Assembly: GCA_900314565.1 (NCBI GenBank)
Contig: OMVU01000012.1
Span: 23,353-87,352, forward strand
Direction: 5' to 3'
Source of the DNA: an uncultured Eubacteriales bacterium
Lineage (GTDB): Bacteria > Bacillota > Clostridia > Lachnospirales > Lachnospiraceae
Length of the DNA stretch: 64,000 nt
Numbering within the stretch: position 1 is the stretch's first letter; every line of letters begins with the position of its first letter. Of this stretch, positions 31,527 through 43,054 are shown in pieces. The position numbers and the translations under genes were made by a program. Below the pieces are notes generated by a model, which ran no database searches, was not told the DNA's origin, and worked only from the letters and a program-made list of their open reading frames with translations.

Positions 31527-31675
31527 TTACGAATTGAGGCGGGATGTGCTGAAAGCGGCGGCACAGACCGACCGGCAAAATGCAGGAGGAAACGCTGGAA
31601 AAGCAGCGACGGATACTTCCATCCGCGATTAAAAGAGGGAGGAGACCGGGGCAGGAACTGCGCCGGAGAAAAAGC

Positions 31676-32053
31676 ATGAGCAGAGTGAACGAAGAAGTGC
31701 CTGAGATCGCCGAAGAATTGATGCCGGAACTGGAAGACGGATTTTTTGATGAAGATCTGTTCGACGAAGAAGAGTTCAGGAACCGGTTCAGCGTTATGAC
31801 CGGAGAAGAGCTTGACCGGGAGGCTGCCGGCGAAGATGCGTTTCCCTGGGATTATGCCCTGGAATGGGAGGAGGAGTTCGAACCGGAAGATTTTCATCCG
31901 CTGACCGGGGAAGAGCTCGATCAGGAAGCTGCCATAGAGGACAGCTTTGAAATCGGGGAAGATGAAGAGGAGGAATTCGATCCGGAAGATTTCCATCCGC
32001 TTACGAAGGAAGAATTAATGACAGAAGGCGGCCGGTACTTCGAGGAGGAATGA
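31676..32053 (+). CDS. Small acidic protein with internal repeats
   Basis: 125 residues from ATG 31676 (GGAGAAAAAGC before it); the longer frame adds an Arg-rich leader out of character with the rest. About one third of residues are Asp or Glu. Three imperfect repeats occur: FSVMTGEELDREAAGED, FHPLTGEELDQEAAIED and FHPLTKEELMTEGG, each preceded by an acidic segment. No known family recognised. It lies 27 bp before the M14-like gene and shares an acidic, repetitive character with the giant protein downstream, so a common role is possible. Confidence 0.6.
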   Translation: MSRVNEEVPEIAEELMPELEDGFFDEDLFDEEEFRNRFSVMTGEELDREAAGEDAFPWDYALEWEEEFEPEDFHPLTGEELDQEAAIEDSFEIGEDEEEEFDPEDFHPLTKEELMTEGGRYFEEE

Positions 32054-32080: not shown

Positions 32081-34057
32081 ATGGGGGAAAATAAAGTGCC
32101 AGACAACCCGCAGAAGCGCGATCTGTTCGCAGAATTATCTGAGATGTCTGTCCGGGAGGTGGAGTCACAGATCCCGGGGACAGCAGAGAGAGGGACAGAG
32201 GAGACAGAAGAGTCTGCGCAGAGGTCGTGGAAGAATACGATCAGGACGATCTCACAAAGGAAAACAGCGTGGACAAAAGGAGCTGAGGATACATCCGAAA
32301 GCTTGTCAGATGCTTTTATTACTGAAGAAAAAAACCAGACAGCAGAGAATGCTGTCAAGTCAGAGCCTGATTCCGGGAAGTCCGGAATCAGCGCCGGTTC
32401 CGTACAGACAGGAAGCCCTGATGCAGTCAGAACGAAGGCTGATCCTGATCATTCCGGGATCGGTGCGCTCGAGAAGGAACTTCTCGGAGCCACCAAAAAT
32501 CATGTGGAAGAAGATGCGAAAACGATCTCTTCGCTTGATCTGGAGCGCGAGCTCCTGTCTGTCAGAGCAGAATCTTCCTCCAGATCAGAAAAGGATGCAC
32601 GTCCGGATCTCAGTGGGATCAGTCTGGAATTTGAGAAGAACAATGAACAGAGTACATCCGCCGGAAAGGTCAGACCGAACGGGAATGTACTTTCAGACGA
32701 GGATACCTTCTATGCAGATATCGCCGCAAATGATATCGAGACAAGAGGACCTGTCAACGAACCGCTCAGGGGTGAGCGCTATGATCCCCTGGAGGAGGAG
32801 CGGGAGCGCAGGGAAAAAAAGGACCGTCTTATAAGGATCATACTTTTCTCGGCTCTGATGCTGGTGGCAGGAGCCCTGCTCACATATGTTACCTTTATCC
32901 GTGATTCGGGAAAGAAACCCGCAGACTCCGTAAAAAGTGCGACTGCCGGTACAGGGAAAAACGACAGTCTGCCGTCGGAGTCATCCGGCACAGGAAGCGG
33001 AGGATCTTTGACCGACAGCGCTTCGAAAGAAACCGTGGAGGATATCAGCACGGAAGATCTTTCGGTCTATCTCTCCGAGATGCCTGCGGAGGGAACCGAA
33101 ATCGTCAGCACTGCCGATGCGCTCTACAGTTATGAACAGATGGTGAAGGATCTGTATTTTCTGACGAACAGATATCCGGATATCATCAGGACGAACATTG
33201 CGGCAACGACGCTGGATCAGCGCGCTGTCTATGAAGTACTTATTGGAAATCCAGACGGATCCATGCATGTCGTCGTGCAGTACGGAATGCGCGGAAGCGA
33301 ATACATCACGAGCCTTCTTGCGATGCGGCAGCTTGAGTATTACTGCCAGGAGCGGTCGAAGGGCAATGTGTACAGGAACCACAATTACAAGGAGATCTTC
33401 GCGGATGTCTGTATCCATGTTCTCCCGATGGTGAACCCGGATGGGGTGACGATCAGCCAGTTCGGGATCGATGCCCTCCGGACCAGGGCCGCAAGGGATT
33501 CCGTGAAAGCCTGCTACGAATATGACAAGGCGGCAGGCCTGACGGATCAGTCTATGGATGCGTACCTTCTGACATTCGGAGCCAATGCAGCAGGCGTTGA
33601 CATCAGCAAAAATTTCCCGGCCGGCTGGAGCAGGTATACCGGCGGAGCCGTGCAGCCTTCCTATCAGGGCTACAAGGGGCCTTCCGCGGGGAGTGAGCCG
33701 GAGACGCAGGCCGTCATGAATGCTGCGAACGACAAAACGAAGGGAGTCGTCATTTACCGGGCGACAGGAAATGTGATCTACTGGGACTACGGTTCGGAGG
33801 GGACTGTACACGAGGAAGGTCAGCATCTTGCCGAGTCGCTTTCCACGAGGTCGGGATATCCGCTCACTGTGCTGCCGAAGTATGATTCGACGGATGCGGG
33901 CGGATGCGCAGACTATTTTATTGAGGAAGGGATCCCTGCGGTCAGCCTCGTCGTCGGGGAGGGAACATCCCCGGTCGATATTTCGGCATTCCCGGATATC
34001 TGGACCGCGAATCTCAATATCCTTCCGATGCTTGCGAATCTTTACACTAATGGCTAA
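32081..34057 (+). CDS. Membrane-anchored M14-like protein lacking zinc and catalytic residues
   Basis: 658 residues, ATG after GGGGG. The first 245 residues are polar and Glu/Ser/Lys-rich, probably disordered and cytoplasmic. A transmembrane helix (about 250-270) and a Ser/Gly/Thr linker precede an M14 carboxypeptidase-like domain (about 345-650). Expected zinc ligands are changed: the HxxE site reads MRGSE (His to Arg), the later His reads YRATG (His to Arg), and the catalytic Glu segment reads SLVVGEG where IEVG is usual. The fold signatures (LPMVNPDG, DISKNFP, EPETQAV) remain. It is probably a pseudoenzyme that binds peptidoglycan peptides rather than cutting them. Confidence 0.78.
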   Translation: MGENKVPDNPQKRDLFAELSEMSVREVESQIPGTAERGTEETEESAQRSWKNTIRTISQRKTAWTKGAEDTSESLSDAFITEEKNQTAENAVKSEPDSGKSGISAGSVQTGSPDAVRTKADPDHSGIGALEKELLGATKNHVEEDAKTISSLDLERELLSVRAESSSRSEKDARPDLSGISLEFEKNNEQSTSAGKVRPNGNVLSDEDTFYADIAANDIETRGPVNEPLRGERYDPLEEERERREKKDRLIRIILFSALMLVAGALLTYVTFIRDSGKKPADSVKSATAGTGKNDSLPSESSGTGSGGSLTDSASKETVEDISTEDLSVYLSEMPAEGTEIVSTADALYSYEQMVKDLYFLTNRYPDIIRTNIAATTLDQRAVYEVLIGNPDGSMHVVVQYGMRGSEYITSLLAMRQLEYYCQERSKGNVYRNHNYKEIFADVCIHVLPMVNPDGVTISQFGIDALRTRAARDSVKACYEYDKAAGLTDQSMDAYLLTFGANAAGVDISKNFPAGWSRYTGGAVQPSYQGYKGPSAGSEPETQAVMNAANDKTKGVVIYRATGNVIYWDYGSEGTVHEEGQHLAESLSTRSGYPLTVLPKYDSTDAGGCADYFIEEGIPAVSLVVGEGTSPVDISAFPDIWTANLNILPMLANLYTNG

Positions 34058-34171: not shown

Positions 34172-34396
34172 ATGCTGCAGGATATTATTGATGTGCTGGC
34201 ACAGTATACGGATGTACCGGCGGAGGAGATCAATGAGAGCTCTGATCTCATTGAGGATCTTGAACTTAATTCATTCGATGTCATCACGATCGTAAGTGAT
34301 TTCGAGGATCAGTACGGGATTCAGATCCCGGACGATCAGATCACGGAATTCCGTACGGTCGCGGATATCGAAGCATATCTGGAGAAGGAAAAATGA
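34172..34396 (+). CDS. Acyl carrier protein
   Basis: 74 residues from ATG 34172, which follows AGGAGGAAAAG; a codon 18 bp earlier is an artefact. Pattern of a four-helix ACP: LQDIIDVLAQYTDVPAEEI, then the carrier motif DLELNSFDVI with the Ser that takes 4'-phosphopantetheine, then FEDQYGIQIPDDQI and a final helix. Strongly acidic. It overlaps the ligase gene by 4 bp, so this ACP is probably loaded by that enzyme rather than serving bulk fatty-acid synthesis, which is not encoded nearby. Confidence 0.9.
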   Translation: MLQDIIDVLAQYTDVPAEEINESSDLIEDLELNSFDVITIVSDFEDQYGIQIPDDQITEFRTVADIEAYLEKEK

Positions 34397-35955
34397 AAAA
34401 ATACCCACCTTATAACCCGCCGGCAGTTGAAGACCTGCGGCAGATGATCGTTTCAAAGGCAGAGAGCAACCCGGATGGCATCGCGTTCATGTACACCGGG
34501 GATGACGGCTCAGTTCAGACAGTTACATACGCACGTTTCCGTGCGGATGTGGATGCAGTCGGGACCTATTTCCATGAGCAGGGAATCGTGGAAGGAAAGC
34601 ATGTGGCGCTGCTCGGCGTCAATTCCTATGAATGGCTAGCGACATTTTTCGCGCTGGTCAACGGCGGAAATGTAGTTCTTCCGCTGGATGCCCGCCAGCC
34701 CGTGGAGAACCTGATCCGCCTGCTCTGGGACGGAGACTGCGCAGTGCTTGCGTATTCAAAGGAATTTGAGCCTGCGATTCCAGCCTTTGCGGCTTCACTG
34801 AACGACAGCCCCGCTGCGGATGCGAGAGGATTCCTTCCTCTTCCGCTCACTTCATTTTCCGATTGGGTCAGAGAAGGTGAGAAGCTTATTGCACTGGGCG
34901 ACCGGTCGTTCATCGACTGCGAGATTGATGTACATGATATGTGCGCGCTGGTCTTTACTTCCGGGACGACCGGAAAGCCGAAGGGCGTCATGCTGAGCCA
35001 GGATAACATTGCGGCGAACATTTACCAGGCGAGCCAGAGCTATGTTCTTGAAGGCGTAGGACTCTCTCCGCTTCCGATGCATCATATGTTCGGACTGATC
35101 GTAGGACATCTGATGGTATTCAACTACAACAGGCCCTGCTATATTGTGAGAAATATCCGCAACGTCATGAAGGACATTCAGATCGCGAAGCCGACCTGTC
35201 TCTTTGTCGTCCCGATGATCATCGAGACATTCGCAAAGCAGTTCCGTATCATGGCAAAGCGCACGGGCACGCAGATGACGCCGGAGATGGTAAAGACAGC
35301 CCTCGGCGGAAATCTTACGGATATTATCTGCGGCGGAGCTCCGCTTCCGGTCATGTATGTGCAGCTGTTCCGCCAGTTCGGTATCAATCTGCTGAACGGA
35401 TACGGCATCACGGAATGCTCACCGGTCCTTGCTGTCAACAGGGTCATGGATTACTGTGACGGTTCTGTCGGTCCTGCGCTTTTTGATACCGAGGTCATGA
35501 TCGACGAGGACGGAGAAATTCTTGCCCGCGGCCGCAACGTCATGCTGGGATATTACAAGGATCACGACGCGACAGCGGAAGCCATGAAGGGCGGCTGGTT
35601 CCATACAGGCGATCTCGGCAAGATCGAGGATCATTATATCTTTATCACGGGCCGCGCGAAGAACCTGATCATCACTTCTTCCGGTGAGAACATTTCTCCG
35701 GAGGAACTGGAAGACAAATTCCTGGCTGATCCGGCTGTCGCTGAGGCGATCGTCTATGAAAAGGACAACAATCTGGCGGTGCAGATCTTCCCTGAGAAGG
35801 AGGCCGGTGCCCCGGAGGAATACTATAAGGCCCTGCTTGCAAAGATCAATTCCGGAGAGCCGGGTTACAGGCAGATCCGCAGTCTTATCATAAGGACGGA
35901 GCCGTTCGTCCGCAATTCGACCGGCAAGATCGTCCGCACGATGATAGAAAAGTAA
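34393..35955 (+). CDS. AMP-forming acyl-CoA/ACP ligase (ANL superfamily)
   Basis: 520 residues, ATG overlapping the ACP stop (ATGA). ANL motifs: VFTSGTTGKPKGVMLSQ (P-loop-like A3), LNGYGITECSP (A5), GWFHTGDLGKIE (A7), GRAKNLIITSSGENISP (A8) and the C-terminal lysine region NSTGKIVR (A10). It would adenylate a carboxylic acid and transfer it to a thiol, here plausibly the adjacent ACP. The substrate could be a fatty or aryl acid. The pair is the only clear enzymatic activity next to the giant flavodoxin-like gene. Confidence 0.9.
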   Translation: MKKYPPYNPPAVEDLRQMIVSKAESNPDGIAFMYTGDDGSVQTVTYARFRADVDAVGTYFHEQGIVEGKHVALLGVNSYEWLATFFALVNGGNVVLPLDARQPVENLIRLLWDGDCAVLAYSKEFEPAIPAFAASLNDSPAADARGFLPLPLTSFSDWVREGEKLIALGDRSFIDCEIDVHDMCALVFTSGTTGKPKGVMLSQDNIAANIYQASQSYVLEGVGLSPLPMHHMFGLIVGHLMVFNYNRPCYIVRNIRNVMKDIQIAKPTCLFVVPMIIETFAKQFRIMAKRTGTQMTPEMVKTALGGNLTDIICGGAPLPVMYVQLFRQFGINLLNGYGITECSPVLAVNRVMDYCDGSVGPALFDTEVMIDEDGEILARGRNVMLGYYKDHDATAEAMKGGWFHTGDLGKIEDHYIFITGRAKNLIITSSGENISPEELEDKFLADPAVAEAIVYEKDNNLAVQIFPEKEAGAPEEYYKALLAKINSGEPGYRQIRSLIIRTEPFVRNSTGKIVRTMIEK

Positions 35956-36162: not shown

Positions 36163-39100
36163 ATGGCGAAATCACTGATTTTATACGATGGAAAAATGAG
36201 CACAACAGAGCGTGTTGCGACCACGATCGGACATATCGTAGGCAACGTCCGGATCTGTGAGATAGCAGAAGCTCCGTCGGACATCTCCATGTATGACGGA
36301 TTCTGTTTTATTTTCAATTTTTACGGTGCGCTCACGGCGGGAAAGACAAAGTCCTTCCTGAATACAAGGAAAGAACAGCTCATCGGCAAAAGGATCGCTT
36401 TTGTCGGCCTCGGTTTTTCCGATAAGGGCTTCACGAAGTATGTCGTTGACATGGAATTTGCTCTGGGCGGAGACCTGTCTATCACAGGCATGTTCATTGA
36501 AAATGAAAAGACAACGACCGAGGTCGGTTATCAGATCGCGAAGAAGCTGCGTGAACCGGTGCGGCGCATGGATGAGGCGGAACTCATGGCGGAAGTCGGC
36601 AGGTTTATTGAGGACCATCATGTTCTCGTTATTGCGACGGGGACAGATGATTTCGTGCGTGCGACGCCGCTGGAATATATATATCTGAACGGTGTGTTTT
36701 ATGTGATCACTGAGGGCGGTCTGAAATACCGGTCTATTCTGGAAAACGGAAATGCGTCTGTGACGATTTTCGATCGATTCGACGGCTCTTTTGAGCATAT
36801 AAGAAGTCTGCAGATTTTTGGAAAGGCACAGCCTGTCAAGTCTCAGACGAAAGAGTACAGTGAGATCCTCGCACGCAAAGGCATCACTGCGGATGCGCTT
36901 GACAAAATGGATGTCTGTCTCTTTGTGCTCCGGATCATGCCTCTGACCATTGAGTTCCTGAACTCGGATTTCACGGCACAGGGATACGACGCGCGCCAGC
37001 TTGGCGATACGGAATTCAGAAAGCAGCTGTGGGAACAGGGAAGTGCGTTCGTCCGCGACAGTTTTGAAATTGCAGGCAGTACCTGTGCCAAAGTCCAGAG
37101 TCAGCCGAAGGAATCCGGACTTTTTGGAAATGAACCGGAAACAGCCGGCAAAAAAGTCAGTGTGGCTTCCGGTGAGGACCGTATGGCCGGTGACGGAGTA
37201 TCAAAAGAAGACAGTGAGACCGGTATGGATCTGACGGGAGATTCTGATGATACGGATCTGTCCACGAATGCAGGCAGTGGATCGCAGCCGGCAGATACCG
37301 AAGACGGCTCTGAAGGGATCTCTGCCGCTGAGGGCAGCCCGGACGGAGAAACGGAAGGTACAGGCTCCCGCAAAATGTACAGCGCATTTGATTTTGGCGG
37401 AGAACTTCTTCTGGAAGATGAAGAAGAGGAAGCTGTGGAAGAGGCGGAGAGAGAGCCGGACGAAGAGGATGATCTTTCATTTTATGGAGACGAAAAGGAA
37501 CCCGTCTACGAGGGGCTCGCTGCTGAGAGCCGTAACATGGCGGAAGAAGTTCGTCGCATGATGGAACTTCGGAGCAGCGAAGACGCTCCTCAGGAAGAGG
37601 AAGAAGAGAAGAAAGTTCCGGATGAGAAGGAACTGGAGGAGTATCGGGATCTCTTCGGCGGGGTGGAAGATCTGCACCGCGACGAAGTGAAAAAGACCCC
37701 GCTCATCGAGCGCGAGGGAAGAGTCGATCTCAGAGAGTATCTGGATGAGATGGATATCGATGAGGAAGACCCGGAAGCGGAAGAGGACGGGGAAGAAGAG
37801 AAAGAAGAGGATTATCTGGAGAGAAAACGTCCGAAGAGAGCGAGAAGACGCGGTTTCTTCGCTTCGGGATTCGGAAAAAGCCTCAGCCGTCTGCTCGGCA
37901 TTGATGACGAGGAAGAGGATGAAGACGAAGATGAAGACGAGTATGATGATGACGAGGAAGACGGGGAGGAGACATACAGAGAATCCTGGATGGAACGCTT
38001 CCGCGCCCGGAGAGACGATGAAGAGCTTATGGATGAACTGCGGGCTGACAGCGAAGAGGAGCCGGATGAGCTTGACGAGCTTCTCCTGAAATACGGATCG
38101 GACGACGAAGAGGACGAAGATTCGGATTCGTACGATGATGAATATGAAGACGATGAGGAAGATTCGGATCCGTACGATGATGAATATGAAGACGATGAGG
38201 AAGATTCGGATTCGTACGATGATGAATATGAAGACGGGGAAGATTCGGATACGTTCGATGATGAGTATGAGGACGATGAGGAAGATTCGGATACGTTCTA
38301 CGATGAGTATGAGGACGACGAAGACGACGATTCGGATGACGGGTACGAAGAGGACGAAGACTCGGATGACGATTATGATGAAGAGGATGAAGATTTCGGG
38401 GATTCGGATGATTATGAAGAGGACGAAGAATACGAAGATTCCGATGACGGGGAATATGAGGATGATGAGGAACCCGATAGACGATCGGGAATGAAATCCG
38501 GTGAAAGCTGGATAAAAAGGATCATAAGGCTCGGGCTTGGCGGAAGAAGCCGTGAAGACGAGGATTCGGATGAGGACGAAGAGGACGAAGACGAATACGA
38601 TTATGATGAATCGGACGAAGACGGATATGAATATGAAGAATCGGACGAAGATGAGTATGAGTATGAAGAATCGGACGAAGATGAGTATGAAAATCCGAAC
38701 GAAGACGAGTACGAATATGAAGAATCGGACGAAGATGAGTATGAGTATGAAGAATCGGACGAAGATGAGTATGAAGAATCAGACGAGGATGAGTACTCTG
38801 ATGAAGAGGAGTATGAGGACTCGGTTGAGTCCGGGGACGAGGATGCGGCTGAAGACGAGTATGAAGAGAGTATCACGGCCTCCCCTTCCGGAGAGCCTGA
38901 AATCAGCATAGAAGCTTATGCGAAAGCGCATGCAGATGACTCGGAGGCTGATGAAAAAGCGATCGAGGCTCGCGCTGTGTTCGAGAACAATCTCCGTGAT
39001 GCTGTGTCAGCCGGGGAAAAGAAGATCGATGTTCCTGTGCCTGCCGAGAACGAGAAAATCGTGGAAGAACGCGTCTCACAGGAAGCTTTTGAGACAGTTG

Positions 39101-41958
39101 AGAACGCAGAGCCTGATGAGGCAGCCGGGATTCCGGTGATCGAGGAGGAAATTGAGACACCGGTAATCGAGGAGTCGATCGAAGTTCCGGTGATCGAGGA
39201 GGAAATTGAGACACCGGTAATTGAGGAAGCAGTCGAGACACCGGTCATCGAAGAGGAAGTTGAGACATCGGTAATTGAGGAGTCGATCGAGGTTCCGGTG
39301 ATCGAGGAGGAGACTGAGACACCGGTAATTGAGGAAGCAGTCGAGACATCGGTCATCGAAGAGGAAATTGAGACACCGGTAATTGAGGAGTCGATCGAGG
39401 TTCCGGTGATCGAGGAGGAAACTGAGTCACCGGTAACTGAGGATGTGATTGAGACTTCAGTGATTGAGGATGTAATCGAGACACCTGCAATTGAGGATGT
39501 GATCGAAATGCCTGCAATTGAGGATGTGATCGAAATGCCTGCGACCAGGAAGACTCAGGCAGCGGAAGTTCCTGAAGTTCCGGAATCCCGGGAGACAGAA
39601 GAGGCAGAGGCTCCTGAAGTGCCGGAGACTGAGACCGCTGAGCCTGACAGAGAGGCTGAGATACCGGCAGAGCCTGTTGAGCCTGACCGGGAAGCTGAGA
39701 TACCGGCAGAGCCTGTTGAGCCTGACCGGGAAGCTGCGATACCGGCAGAGCCAGTCGAGCCTGATATGGAAAATGAAGTGCCGGAGAAAAAGGATACTTC
39801 CGGTGAGTATAAAGCTTCCGGGAGATTCTGGTGGGATTCTGATTACACGGATCTTTCCGGAGAGGATATTACGGACTTCCGGGAAGTCATTGAGGAGGAA
39901 GAAACAGTTTCTGAATCCGTAGCCGGCCTGAAAAAAGAGTCAGATCATGAAGAATATGATCTGAGTGAAGACGATGATTCATACGATTCGGACGAGTGCG
40001 AGGAAAATGAGTACCAGGATGACGATGAGTATGAAGACGATGGCGAGTACGAAGACGATGGCGAGTACGAAGACGATGGCGAGTACGAAGACGATGGCGA
40101 GTACGAAGATGATGGCGAGTACGAAGATGATGACGAGTACGAAGACGACGAGTACGACGATTATGAAGACGCTGAATATGAAGAAGAGGAAGAATCTGAC
40201 GAGGATACAGGCTCTGATCTCGGCAGCCGGATAAAGAATGTTTTCGGACGTCTTTTCGGTCGGGGATTTGCAAAGTCTTCGGATGACGAGGATGAGTACG
40301 AGGATGACTCGGATGAGTACGACGAAGAAGATGAGTACGATGATGACGAGGATGAATACGACGAAGACGACGAGTACGACGACGAGTATGATGACGATGA
40401 AGACGACGAGTACGACGAAGAGTATGATGACGCCGCCGACGAAGAAGACGAAGAGTATGAGGACAGCTCCGTAGACGGCGGGTATGAAGATGACGATGAT
40501 TACGAGGAAGATGAGAACACACAGAGCCCTGCAGGATTCGGCGAGGTCATTAAAGCAGAGGATCAGGGGCCTTCCAATGTAAGAAACAAAAGCGGAGAGA
40601 TTGATCTGCCGGGCAGTTCGGCTTCAGATACCGTGGATTTGGAGGTGCCGAATGAATCTGACAGATATGTAAGCTCCGATTTTTCCGAAAAAGCGGCTGC
40701 CGGATTCGCAGGCAAAAAAGTGAATGTCATCACTTCGGAGTACGATGATACGGACGAGTACGATGATTCCGATGAATATGATGATACGGATGAGTACGAT
40801 GACACGGATGAGTACGATGACTCAGATGAGTTCGATGATGACGGGAAGGAAGACGACGAGTACGACGATTCAGACGAATATGACGAGGATGAAGACGACG
40901 AGTACGACGATTCAGATGAATATGACGAGGATGAAGACGACGAGTACGACGATTCGGATGAATATAACGAGGATGAAGACGACGAGTACGACGACTCAGA
41001 TGAATACGATGAGGATGATGAGGACGAAGACGACGAAGAGAGAGGCAGTGCATTTTCTGCTGTCAGAGGCTGGTTCGGCCGTCTGAGGGAGCGCCTCTCA
41101 TCCGACAATGTCGAGGACGATGAGTACGACGAAGAGGATGACGACGAAGACGATGATGAGAGTGAAGAAGACGAGTACGGCGAAAACGAATATGATGAGA
41201 GCGAAGAAGATGACTACACGGACTTCATAGTATCTGAAGAGGATGATGAAGACGCCGGAGATGAGTACGATGAAGACGAAGATGAGTACGACGAAGATGA
41301 TGAGTACGACGAAGATGACGAGTACGACGAAGACGAGTACGACGACGAAGACGATGAGGACGACGAAGACGAGTACGACGATGATGATGAGGACGACGAA
41401 CATGAGTCAGTGTTCCGGCGGTTCTTTGGAGGAAGGCGCAGCCGAAAGAAATCAAAGCCTGTAAAGACTGCAGCCAGAGAACCCGAAGAGGTCGAGGACT
41501 GGCAGGATTTTGATGACATGGCGGACGAGGACGTTTATTTCGCGGATCTCCGGGATGACGAGCGGACGCGCAGGTCGCAGCGGGGCAGAGCGGACAGCGG
41601 AAGGAAGACCCGGACAGATACGTCTCTGGAGGACAGCTATTATTCTGATATCCGTAAGTCGAGCCGCTATTCGGAATCTCAATACGAAGATGATCTTTCA
41701 ATGGAGGAGCTCCCCGATCATATGACCATCCGGGGAGAAGACTTTACCCAGATGCTCCGCAAGGCCGTTCGAAGTGTCAACAGCGGCAGTGCGGTGAATC
41801 CCGGTACCGACGCTGCGGGCGGCAGGACCGGCAGTGTTCGCAACGAAACGATCGATGGCGACGACACCGATGATGGAGAAATCATACCGGGCAGTGTGTA
41901 TGACGCTTCCCGCGGCATGACGATCACAGGGTTCGATGAGGACTCGGAAAATGTATAA
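36163..41958 (+). CDS. Giant flavodoxin-PNPOx-like protein with long polyacidic repeat tail
   Basis: 1931 residues from ATG 36163 (GAGGCGGGGA upstream; a promoter lies between it and the earlier ATG). Residues about 1-145 look flavodoxin-like (MAKSLILYDGKMSTTERVA, FIFNFYGAL, AFVGLGFSDKGF), about 147-275 like an FMN-binding split barrel (LVIATGTDDFVRATPLEYIYLNG...). The other 1650 or so are Asp/Glu/Tyr/Ser-rich, with GEYEDD, EYDDSDEYDED and PVIEEEIET (about 989-1126) repeats. Five short basic-amphipathic patches interrupt it near 561-583, 774-799, 1350-1375, 1626-1650 and 1747-1773, such as WIKRIIRLGLGG. No signal peptide or transmembrane helix. Function unknown; redox or scaffold roles are guesses. 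Confidence 0.72.
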   Translation: MAKSLILYDGKMSTTERVATTIGHIVGNVRICEIAEAPSDISMYDGFCFIFNFYGALTAGKTKSFLNTRKEQLIGKRIAFVGLGFSDKGFTKYVVDMEFALGGDLSITGMFIENEKTTTEVGYQIAKKLREPVRRMDEAELMAEVGRFIEDHHVLVIATGTDDFVRATPLEYIYLNGVFYVITEGGLKYRSILENGNASVTIFDRFDGSFEHIRSLQIFGKAQPVKSQTKEYSEILARKGITADALDKMDVCLFVLRIMPLTIEFLNSDFTAQGYDARQLGDTEFRKQLWEQGSAFVRDSFEIAGSTCAKVQSQPKESGLFGNEPETAGKKVSVASGEDRMAGDGVSKEDSETGMDLTGDSDDTDLSTNAGSGSQPADTEDGSEGISAAEGSPDGETEGTGSRKMYSAFDFGGELLLEDEEEEAVEEAEREPDEEDDLSFYGDEKEPVYEGLAAESRNMAEEVRRMMELRSSEDAPQEEEEEKKVPDEKELEEYRDLFGGVEDLHRDEVKKTPLIEREGRVDLREYLDEMDIDEEDPEAEEDGEEEKEEDYLERKRPKRARRRGFFASGFGKSLSRLLGIDDEEEDEDEDEDEYDDDEEDGEETYRESWMERFRARRDDEELMDELRADSEEEPDELDELLLKYGSDDEEDEDSDSYDDEYEDDEEDSDPYDDEYEDDEEDSDSYDDEYEDGEDSDTFDDEYEDDEEDSDTFYDEYEDDEDDDSDDGYEEDEDSDDDYDEEDEDFGDSDDYEEDEEYEDSDDGEYEDDEEPDRRSGMKSGESWIKRIIRLGLGGRSREDEDSDEDEEDEDEYDYDESDEDGYEYEESDEDEYEYEESDEDEYENPNEDEYEYEESDEDEYEYEESDEDEYEESDEDEYSDEEEYEDSVESGDEDAAEDEYEESITASPSGEPEISIEAYAKAHADDSEADEKAIEARAVFENNLRDAVSAGEKKIDVPVPAENEKIVEERVSQEAFETVENAEPDEAAGIPVIEEEIETPVIEESIEVPVIEEEIETPVIEEAVETPVIEEEVETSVIEESIEVPVIEEETETPVIEEAVETSVIEEEIETPVIEESIEVPVIEEETESPVTEDVIETSVIEDVIETPAIEDVIEMPAIEDVIEMPATRKTQAAEVPEVPESRETEEAEAPEVPETETAEPDREAEIPAEPVEPDREAEIPAEPVEPDREAAIPAEPVEPDMENEVPEKKDTSGEYKASGRFWWDSDYTDLSGEDITDFREVIEEEETVSESVAGLKKESDHEEYDLSEDDDSYDSDECEENEYQDDDEYEDDGEYEDDGEYEDDGEYEDDGEYEDDGEYEDDDEYEDDEYDDYEDAEYEEEEESDEDTGSDLGSRIKNVFGRLFGRGFAKSSDDEDEYEDDSDEYDEEDEYDDDEDEYDEDDEYDDEYDDDEDDEYDEEYDDAADEEDEEYEDSSVDGGYEDDDDYEEDENTQSPAGFGEVIKAEDQGPSNVRNKSGEIDLPGSSASDTVDLEVPNESDRYVSSDFSEKAAAGFAGKKVNVITSEYDDTDEYDDSDEYDDTDEYDDTDEYDDSDEFDDDGKEDDEYDDSDEYDEDEDDEYDDSDEYDEDEDDEYDDSDEYNEDEDDEYDDSDEYDEDDEDEDDEERGSAFSAVRGWFGRLRERLSSDNVEDDEYDEEDDDEDDDESEEDEYGENEYDESEEDDYTDFIVSEEDDEDAGDEYDEDEDEYDEDDEYDEDDEYDEDEYDDEDDEDDEDEYDDDDEDDEHESVFRRFFGGRRSRKKSKPVKTAAREPEEVEDWQDFDDMADEDVYFADLRDDERTRRSQRGRADSGRKTRTDTSLEDSYYSDIRKSSRYSESQYEDDLSMEELPDHMTIRGEDFTQMLRKAVRSVNSGSAVNPGTDAAGGRTGSVRNETIDGDDTDDGEIIPGSVYDASRGMTITGFDEDSENV
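38119..38325 (+). repeat. 42-bp tandem repeat within giant gene
   Basis: About five units starting GATTCGGATTCGTACGATGA, encoding DSDSYDDEYEDDEE-type repeats; the third unit is 3 bp short. Confidence 0.75.
39127..39540 (+). repeat. 24-bp-class coding repeat (PVIEE motif)
   Basis: About 17 units of eight residues, such as TPVIEEEI and VPVIEESI, with synonymous and conservative changes between units. The distinct composition from the rest of the tail (Val, Ile, Pro) suggests a separate structural segment. Confidence 0.75.
40033..40140 (+). repeat. 18-bp exact tandem repeat within giant gene
   Basis: Six units of GAAGACGATGGCGAGTAC (last two slightly changed), encoding EDDGEY. Near-perfect identity suggests recent expansion or slippage. 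Confidence 0.85.
40849..41016 (+). repeat. 42-bp tandem repeat within giant gene
   Basis: Four units beginning GAAGACGACGAGTACGAC, encoding EDDEYDDSDEYDED. Only a few bases vary between units. Confidence 0.75.
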
Positions 41959-43054
41959 AAAGCATCTTTTTACAGCGCTGCTCCTTATGGCGGCAGCGCT
42001 GTTTTTACGTGCAGGCGCACGATATTTTGCCGGTTTTGCAGACTCCTATGCCCGCACCTTCAACCGGATCTGGGTCATGACGCTCGGCAGGGCGAGTTCG
42101 GTCTTTTCTTTTTCGGTGGTCGAGTTCCTGATCTGCGGGCTGATCATTCTCCTTTTCTTTTGGATCATCCGCCTTATTCTCGCTTGGGTGCACCGGAAAC
42201 GGGAGGACGGAAAGGATAAATTCATAAGAGCGGGCAGGCTCTTTATCGGTAGGGTCCTTGTCCTTGTCACGCTGATCTTCTTTCTCTTCGAGGCAAATGA
42301 GGATATCTATTTTTACTGTACTCCCTTCTCTGTCCGTGAAGGATATGGCGAGGGAGACTATTCTACGGAAGACCTTGCAAAGTGCTGCACATGGCTCGCG
42401 GATGAAGCCGGACGGTACGCAGATCTTGTGGAGCGCGACGGCGGCGGGATCATGGTGATGAATGCGGATGCGGATACACGGATCCGTGAGGCTATGATGG
42501 ATCTCGGCACATCCTACGGGGAACTCTCGGGATGGTATCCGAGGGCGAAGCCGGTCTTCTTTTCAAGAATCATGTCTCTGACCAACATGGCGGGAATTTA
42601 TTCCGCCTACACGATCGAGGCCAATTACAACAGGGATATGACGGAATATAATCATGCTTTCTGCGCTTCGCACGAGCTGTCGCACCTGAAGGGCATCATG
42701 CAGGAAAATGAAGCCAACTTTGTCGCCTACCTCTGCTGCATGAATTCAAAGGAGCCGGACATTCATTACTCCGGGCTTCTCTCCGGCTGGATCTACTGCG
42801 GAAATGAGCTCTATAAGAGAGACAGAGAGTGCTGGTCGGAAATATACGGAACGCTGGATGACCGCTGCATTGCGGATCTCAGCGCGAATAATGCTTTCTG
42901 GGCCAGCTATAAAGGAGAGATCTCGGATGCTGCGGAATCGTTCAATGATGCGTATCTGAAGGGAAGAGGCCAGGAGGATGGGACTGGATCATATGACAGA
43001 GTAGTCGATTTGATTGTTTCCTATGAGAAAAAGCGCGGTGAGGTCTTGCAATAA
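41951..43054 (+). CDS. DUF3810-type membrane metallopeptidase
   Basis: About 367 residues; the ATG at 41951 (or 41936) overlaps the end of the giant gene, suggesting translational coupling. Three hydrophobic helices near the N-terminus (about 3-20, 42-66, 89-108) precede an extracytoplasmic part. The zinc motif HELSHLKGIMQENEANFVAYL carries the HExxH-like HELSH and a downstream Glu, as in DUF3810 proteins of Firmicutes. It is likely a membrane zinc peptidase with unknown substrate. Its overlap with the giant acidic gene is the best clue to a shared role. Confidence 0.82.
   Translation: MYKKHLFTALLLMAAALFLRAGARYFAGFADSYARTFNRIWVMTLGRASSVFSFSVVEFLICGLIILLFFWIIRLILAWVHRKREDGKDKFIRAGRLFIGRVLVLVTLIFFLFEANEDIYFYCTPFSVREGYGEGDYSTEDLAKCCTWLADEAGRYADLVERDGGGIMVMNADADTRIREAMMDLGTSYGELSGWYPRAKPVFFSRIMSLTNMAGIYSAYTIEANYNRDMTEYNHAFCASHELSHLKGIMQENEANFVAYLCCMNSKEPDIHYSGLLSGWIYCGNELYKRDRECWSEIYGTLDDRCIADLSANNAFWASYKGEISDAAESFNDAYLKGRGQEDGTGSYDRVVDLIVSYEKKRGEVLQ

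Follow-up and report, generated by a model that had tools for sequence, protein, structure and literature searches.

What could a polyacidic tail of more than a thousand residues do for a protein that appears to be cytoplasmic? The question arises from one gene in the window, by which we mean the whole 64,000-nucleotide stretch of DNA analysed. The encoded protein of 1931 amino acids had no match in NCBIfam or PHROGs. In the open-licence PMC literature searched, we recognised no paper on the 1931-residue protein itself, nor any on a similarly tailed protein that combines flavodoxin and PNPOx folds.

The two-domain head and its polyacidic tail

The original prediction placed two flavin-type folds at the N-terminus. 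A structure model supports both. In this model, the head adopts the alpha/beta fold of the flavodoxin-like superfamily and the split-barrel fold of PNPOx-like proteins, and both folds match flavin families. By sequence, PNPOx_N (PF01243) scored 27.3 bits, against a curated Pfam cut-off of 28.1. Fold-match lists also contained the receptor entries 5tgz, 7ddz and 7epf, presumably matched via a flavodoxin fusion partner and uninformative here. The lack of an export signal, also predicted, agrees with the N-terminal sequence MAKSLILYDGK, since this begins the first flavodoxin strand.

In FMN-binding flavodoxins, the phosphate loop after the first strand has the consensus (S/T)xTGxT. This was not found in 26 members of the genus. 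Here, the region is mostly DG[KR]xSS[AT]E and position 15, the last Thr, is Ala in 16 of the 26. Hence, the loop sequence makes it doubtful that the flavodoxin domain binds FMN.

The giant acidic repeat tail proved to be a genuine part of the protein. Residues 301-1931 (1631 aa) comprise 45% Asp+Glu, 5.8% Tyr, 7.8% Ser and 7.2% Lys+Arg. Tandem repeats are real, with 35 overlapping TRF rows. No stops occur in the tail frame; the other two forward frames contain 37 and 218, and the reverse frames 18-23. Asp, Glu and Tyr codons show no synonymous bias (55/45, 49/51 and 48/52, respectively). Hence, the tail is a real reading frame. A frameshift or assembly artefact is ruled out by these properties, by pN/pS (0.32 outside the islands described below, for the window against relative L015/L072, whose folded part is 88% identical) and by tails in 24 of 25 complete proteins of the genus.

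With 732 acidic residues and a net charge of -614, the tail could be a polyanionic sponge. Such a tail would buffer Ca2+, Mg2+, other metals or polyamines, or mimic DNA to occupy basic proteins. However, it contains only two Cys. A sponge would also leave unexplained both a conserved basic/aromatic island and the near-neutral short tails of some relatives (L080 -7, L083 -1, L084 +4, L085 -2). We consider this role improbable.

The gene order is M14 peptidase, AMP-binding ligase, tail gene and DUF3810 (Table 1). Across 28 homologue loci, some on short contigs or sampled stretches, a same-strand DUF3810 gene lay downstream in 17, an AMP-binding gene was found in 11 and neither in 8. The neighbours name no pathway. 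Hydrophobic segments lie at the N-terminal end of the DUF3810 protein, which also contains an HELSH (HExxH-like) motif. It had no convincing PDB relative by sequence (best E 0.12) and the word DUF3810 was not found in the open-licence PMC literature searched. In the M14 peptidase-like protein (32081-34057), an apparent transmembrane segment follows a long, charged N-terminal stretch. Just upstream of its gene, a small acidic ORF (31580-32053) contains repeated F(D/E)PEDFHPLTxEEL units.

Table 1. Features of the tail gene and its immediate neighbours (window positions; aa, residues of the 1931-residue protein)
Feature	Residues	Position	Strand	Basis
AMP-binding (acyl-CoA-ligase-like) gene, upstream		34393..35955	+	PF00501, E 5.5e-60
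Whole ORF	1931 aa	36163..41958	+	ATG start, no internal stop
Flavodoxin-like domain; degenerate phosphate-loop region D9-E16	1-133	36163..36561	+	
PNPOx/HugZ-type split-barrel domain	138-285	36574..37017	+	
Polyacidic repeat tail	301-1931	37063..41955	+	composition, codon use and frame stops, TRF
Conserved island 1, RRRGFFASGFGKSLSRLLGIDDEEEDED	561-588	37843..37926	+	profile 29.6 bits; decoys (1712 chunks) at most 10.3
Conserved SWMERFRARR motif after island 1	608-617	37984..38013	+	similar WMxRxRxxR in L015-L018
Island 2, ...GESWIKRIIRLGLGGRS...	771-800	38473..38562	+	island rule; amphipathicity p 0.117
Island 3, ...SRIKNVFGRLFGRGFAKSS...	1349-1375	40207..40287	+	island rule; amphipathicity p 0.048
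Weak island call, probably no anchor	1507-1524	40681..40734	+	island rule; muH 0.14
Island 4, ...SAFSAVRGWFGRLRERLSS...	1625-1650	41035..41112	+	island rule; amphipathicity p 0.433
Island 5, VFRRFFGGRRSRKKSKPV, basic/aromatic, non-amphipathic	1750-1767	41410..41463	+	island rule; p 0.768
Island 6, includes GEDFTQMLRKAVRSV, most amphipathic	1853-1881	41719..41805	+	muH 0.80, 0/1000 shuffles
DUF3810 gene, downstream, 23-nt overlap with tail gene		41936..43054	+	PF12725, E 1.1e-90

Tail length across the genus

The original prediction called for a homologue search with the folded part, followed by inspection of the tails. The domain profile matched 31 of 42 genus genomes. We collected the window protein and 28 of the other 30 matches (L037, L067-L093). 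Left out were G159, a 211-residue frame matching only positions 130-284 of the profile, and G182, where a contig end leaves 28 residues. Window included, the set comprises 25 complete proteins and four cut by contig ends. The tail is common to the genus. In the 24 complete proteins that have one, it spans 136-1638 residues, counted from residue 131 in L091 and L092; L074 (290 aa) has no tail. A run of N lies inside the tail of L073. Outside the genus, no tail was found: the longest open frame was 298 aa in 34 matching genomes of a 397-genome family sample, and 321 aa in 42 matching genomes of a 392-genome order sample.

Giant tails cluster on the domain tree, from which L090-L092 were left out. 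An apparent need for two origins of these tails arose when L093, which is cut by a contig end, was taken as not giant. Once L093 is treated as giant, the tree requires two changes, and one origin occurs in 46% of bootstrap trees. The divergent proteins L091 and L092 (genomes G155 and G163) match only the flavodoxin half of the profile, and keep the acidic tail and basic islands. The split barrel is apparently lost in both. To judge from these two proteins, tail and head seem to evolve separately.

Basic/aromatic islands in the tail

Islands punctuate the tail. Both these and the genus-wide family escaped the original prediction, as did the parallel with SepF described below. We called an island where net charge was at least +2, with at least five FWILMV residues, within 18 residues. 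The window tail contains seven; composition shuffles average 0.07 and none of 300 reach seven. Six of the seven look meaningful, residues 1507-1524 being set aside for a low hydrophobic moment. By the same rule, giant tails L067, L068, L069, L070 and L072 have 3-8 islands each (0/300 shuffles). L071 has three, and 8/300 shuffles get as many. Counts in most shorter tails are not clearly above shuffles (L078 78/300, L080 222/300) and the rule finds none in L079, L086 or L089.

Many shorter-tailed members have a conserved island near the C-terminus, such as KKEAGFLGRIGAGIGQMLRLDDDDDEADFGEE in L080. A profile was built from the islands of 11 shorter-tailed relatives, hand-picked from translations, with no giant tails in training. 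Nine of the 11 begin in the last 52 residues of the protein. When whole tails were searched first, the motif was detected in one giant tail only, L072, and L077 scored 16.7 bits. Presumably, this run was weak because composition correction suppresses matches in acidic sequence. The search used was made on chunked tails, with no composition correction and with decoys handled identically. It finds one copy in each of the seven complete giant tails, at 22-34 bits, while 1712 reversed or shuffled decoy chunks reach 10.3. Altogether, the motif is present in 19 of 24 complete tailed members: all seven giants and 12 of 17 with shorter tails. The five shorter-tailed members in which it was not found are L079, L086, L089, L091 and L092.

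In the window, conserved island 1 is the RRRGFFASGFGKSLSRLLGI segment, and SWMERFRARR follows. Residues 603-640, around the latter motif, are 92% identical to L072 with a pN/pS of 0.05. The WMxRxRxxR form is absent from L019/L021.

Of 17 conserved-island copies, 12 exceed their own shuffles in amphipathicity (p<0.05); the copy in the window, island 1, does not (p 0.10-0.11). Two of six window islands tested pass at the same threshold (1352-1370, p 0.048; 1859-1874, 0/1000). The test has little power, since SepF segments also fail it (0 of 40). AF2 gave the island-1 region a mean pLDDT of 60, with only four helical residues inside the island and no stable helix. This model speaks neither for nor against a helix formed on a membrane.

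Do the islands serve a condensate? Acidic blocks and basic/aromatic islands could make the tail a polyampholyte, able to associate with itself or to form coacervates with basic proteins or polyamines. The head would be concentrated in the cytosol and no membrane would be needed. The charge pattern is indeed block-like, islands 2, 3 and 4 lying between 20-residue flanks of -15 to -18. Repeats are Tyr-rich, and the pattern persists in long tails while tail length varies widely. However, several members with short, near-neutral tails (L080, L083-L085) keep one island near the C-terminus, which would be a poor design for a condensate. The recurrent hydrophobic pattern of the conserved island, with its 12 of 17 amphipathic copies, also exceeds the needs of a generic cationic sticker. 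We regard condensate formation as unlikely.

Comparison of the window with L072 bears on selection. Identity is 75% in the islands, 59% in the rest of the tail and 88% in the folded part. The higher identity of the islands does not prove that selection on them is stronger, because pN/pS is nearly equal in islands (0.28) and in the rest of the tail. This similarity would suit mostly neutral repeat growth, in which a functional linker with one anchor was lengthened by replication slippage of its acidic repeats, the extra length doing little. So would the clear tandem repeats, tail lengths of 0 to 1638 aa within one genus, and the drift of composition and length between relatives. However, islands 2, 3, 4 and 6 are not repeat units. 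With gaps counted, they are 69-73% identical between the window and L072; outside the islands, the 59% refers to aligned residues and a further 18% is gapped. Furthermore, the seven complete giant genes hold frame over 1.2-1.6 thousand tail codons. Neutral growth is, in our estimate, rather unlikely.

Metal or counter-ion binding, phase separation and a ruler function, all suggested in the original prediction, derive from the acidic repeats alone. They leave the conserved basic/aromatic islands unaccounted for. In our reading, the islands favour membrane tethering over such roles.

The SepF layout and a possible membrane tether

The sepF gene of the same genome encodes a protein that starts MGFFDRFLDAIRLNDDYDDDDFLDEEEDDYDDDYDEDED, followed by KPRKRFFDRF and a second acidic-Tyr stretch. 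SepF was found in 40 of 42 genus genomes. In a pattern test, 38 of the 40 have an N-terminal patch, an acidic spacer and a second basic-aromatic patch. A DNA pattern for (acidic)3-Tyr-(acidic)4 matched the 4.2 Mb window genome 17 times, 16 in the tail gene and one in sepF; the reversed control gave 0 matches in the same genome. A genome-wide habit of acidic tails was rejected, the strict pattern being confined to these two genes. By our tally from a pattern search of the 42 genomes, 13 have the pattern in sepF, 7 have it in the tail gene and 18 have it in other genes, at 28 places when counted by contig. Hence, we claim exclusivity for the window genome only.

We inspected 15 of the 28 other loci, assigning names and topology by eye. 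In nine, from four protein types, the tract adjoins an apparent transmembrane segment. These are four zinc-ribbon proteins, three PrkC-like kinases, a small membrane protein and an RseP-like protease. The others are one DivIVA-like protein, four apparently extracytoplasmic proteins and one locus without a readable protein. In the zinc-ribbon membrane proteins (L150-L152, L161), the acidic/Tyr tract precedes a hydrophobic segment. In L150-L152, it directly follows a RLAGFFGLGDDD-type patch, the same patch-spacer grammar. The PrkC-like Ser/Thr kinases (L153, L154 and L156, the first represented by its C-terminal part only) have an Asp/Tyr tract shortly before an apparent transmembrane helix. DivIVA-like L155 ends in an Asp/Tyr-rich acidic tail.

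What tail and SepF share is layout and composition. Homology between the islands and SepF found no support: the island profile scores SepF at no more than 11.3 bits, not clearly above the 10.3 of decoys. The SepF core domain (PF04472) gave no Pfam match in the 1931-residue protein at E 0.1, and matches only the separate sepF gene in this genome. Before phylogenetic correction, SepF linker and tail composition correlate for Tyr (rho 0.67) and Asp+Glu (rho 0.64), with rho -0.17 for D/(D+E). These values use 25 rows; of the 29 proteins, those omitted came from G162 (tail-less), G188 and G158 (both truncated) and G175 (where SepF was not found). The corrected analysis also omitted L091 and L092. 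Corrected for relatedness, r is 0.45 (p 0.11) or 0.52 (p 0.007) for Tyr, depending on the tree, and 0.30-0.31 (p 0.20, 0.12) for Asp+Glu. Since the correlation is weak to moderate after correction, we treat co-variation as suggestive only.

In a study of C. glutamicum SepF, the N-terminal peptide binds lipid vesicles with a Kd of about 32 uM, and yet the patch and linker fused to a monomeric fluorescent protein stay cytoplasmic (PMC7118173). Hence, anchoring of this SepF needs avidity.

We propose that the window protein is a flavoprotein-like scaffold peripheral to the membrane, to which several weak anchors of the SepF kind, spaced by polyacidic linkers, tether it. We give this reading about an even chance. 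In its favour, we count the non-random islands, the motif in every complete giant tail, the layout shared with SepF, the tracts beside apparent transmembrane segments in other proteins, and the tails and islands kept by L091 and L092. Against it, we count the AF2 model, the mixed amphipathicity results, the lack of profile homology with SepF, the similar pN/pS inside and outside the islands, the shorter tails with few islands or no motif, the pattern in other genes (some apparently for extracytoplasmic proteins), and the modest correlations after correction. The reading is preferred over a condensate, neutral growth or a sponge because some six patches on polyanionic spacers could supply such avidity by themselves. 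Briefly, the flavodoxin-like/PNPOx-like unit would be a globular head and the tail a disordered tether, built like the SepF N-terminus. Short basic/aromatic, partly amphipathic patches would dip into the inner leaflet. The Asp/Glu/Tyr spacers between them would stay extended, repelled by acidic lipids and by one another. One patch is widespread and probably the ancestral anchor. In giant-tailed members, it would have been supplemented, to about six in the window, several weak anchors giving avidity that one lacks. The conserved anchor-like island is as far as the sequences lead; from lipid binding onwards, we infer the steps. Should the head hold a cofactor, redox or heme chemistry might take place there.

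A bolder version is tentative, and we think it doubtful. Here, the head would be a sensor (of redox state, flavin or heme) carried by a polyacidic, multivalent brush at the membrane, in which SepF-type anchor-spacer units are reiterated. It would work at the division site or share the membrane or partner specificity of SepF.

If this bolder version is correct, the SepF N-terminal grammar would be a portable and expandable localisation module. With one and the same head, members of the genus range from tail-less, through a short linker bearing one anchor-like patch, to a tail of 1.6 thousand residues with about six. The SepF proteins of these genomes provide an internal comparison. The series makes it testable, in general terms, what number of weak amphipathic anchors and what amount of polyanion a soluble protein needs to be placed on a membrane or in a condensate. 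An answer would also be a first way into the function of the giant, acidic, low-complexity tails of bacterial proteins.

Known systems resemble parts of this architecture. In another genus of this family, a 286-residue protein, L041, resembles the window head in matching both domains of the profile (17-287). However, it has no tail, and its loop is a canonical-looking SKYGFTE rather than the motif that predominates in the tailed genus. A less certain relative from another genus of the family, L039 (285 aa), matches 111-283 only, which leaves its flavodoxin half without a match, and has no tail. HugZ/HutZ and PNPOx-like split barrels share 11-20% identity with the split barrel here (three compared). 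They differ in that ours is fused behind a flavodoxin-like domain. SepF of the genus and of C. glutamicum (PMC7118173) shares the layout of a patch, basic-aromatic or amphipathic, then a long spacer of Asp/Glu(/Tyr) and a further patch. Conversely, the window protein lacks the SepF core domain and profile-level homology, and its spacers run to tens to hundreds of residues. SepF has two patches; the window protein has about six, placed internally or C-terminally rather than at the N-terminus.
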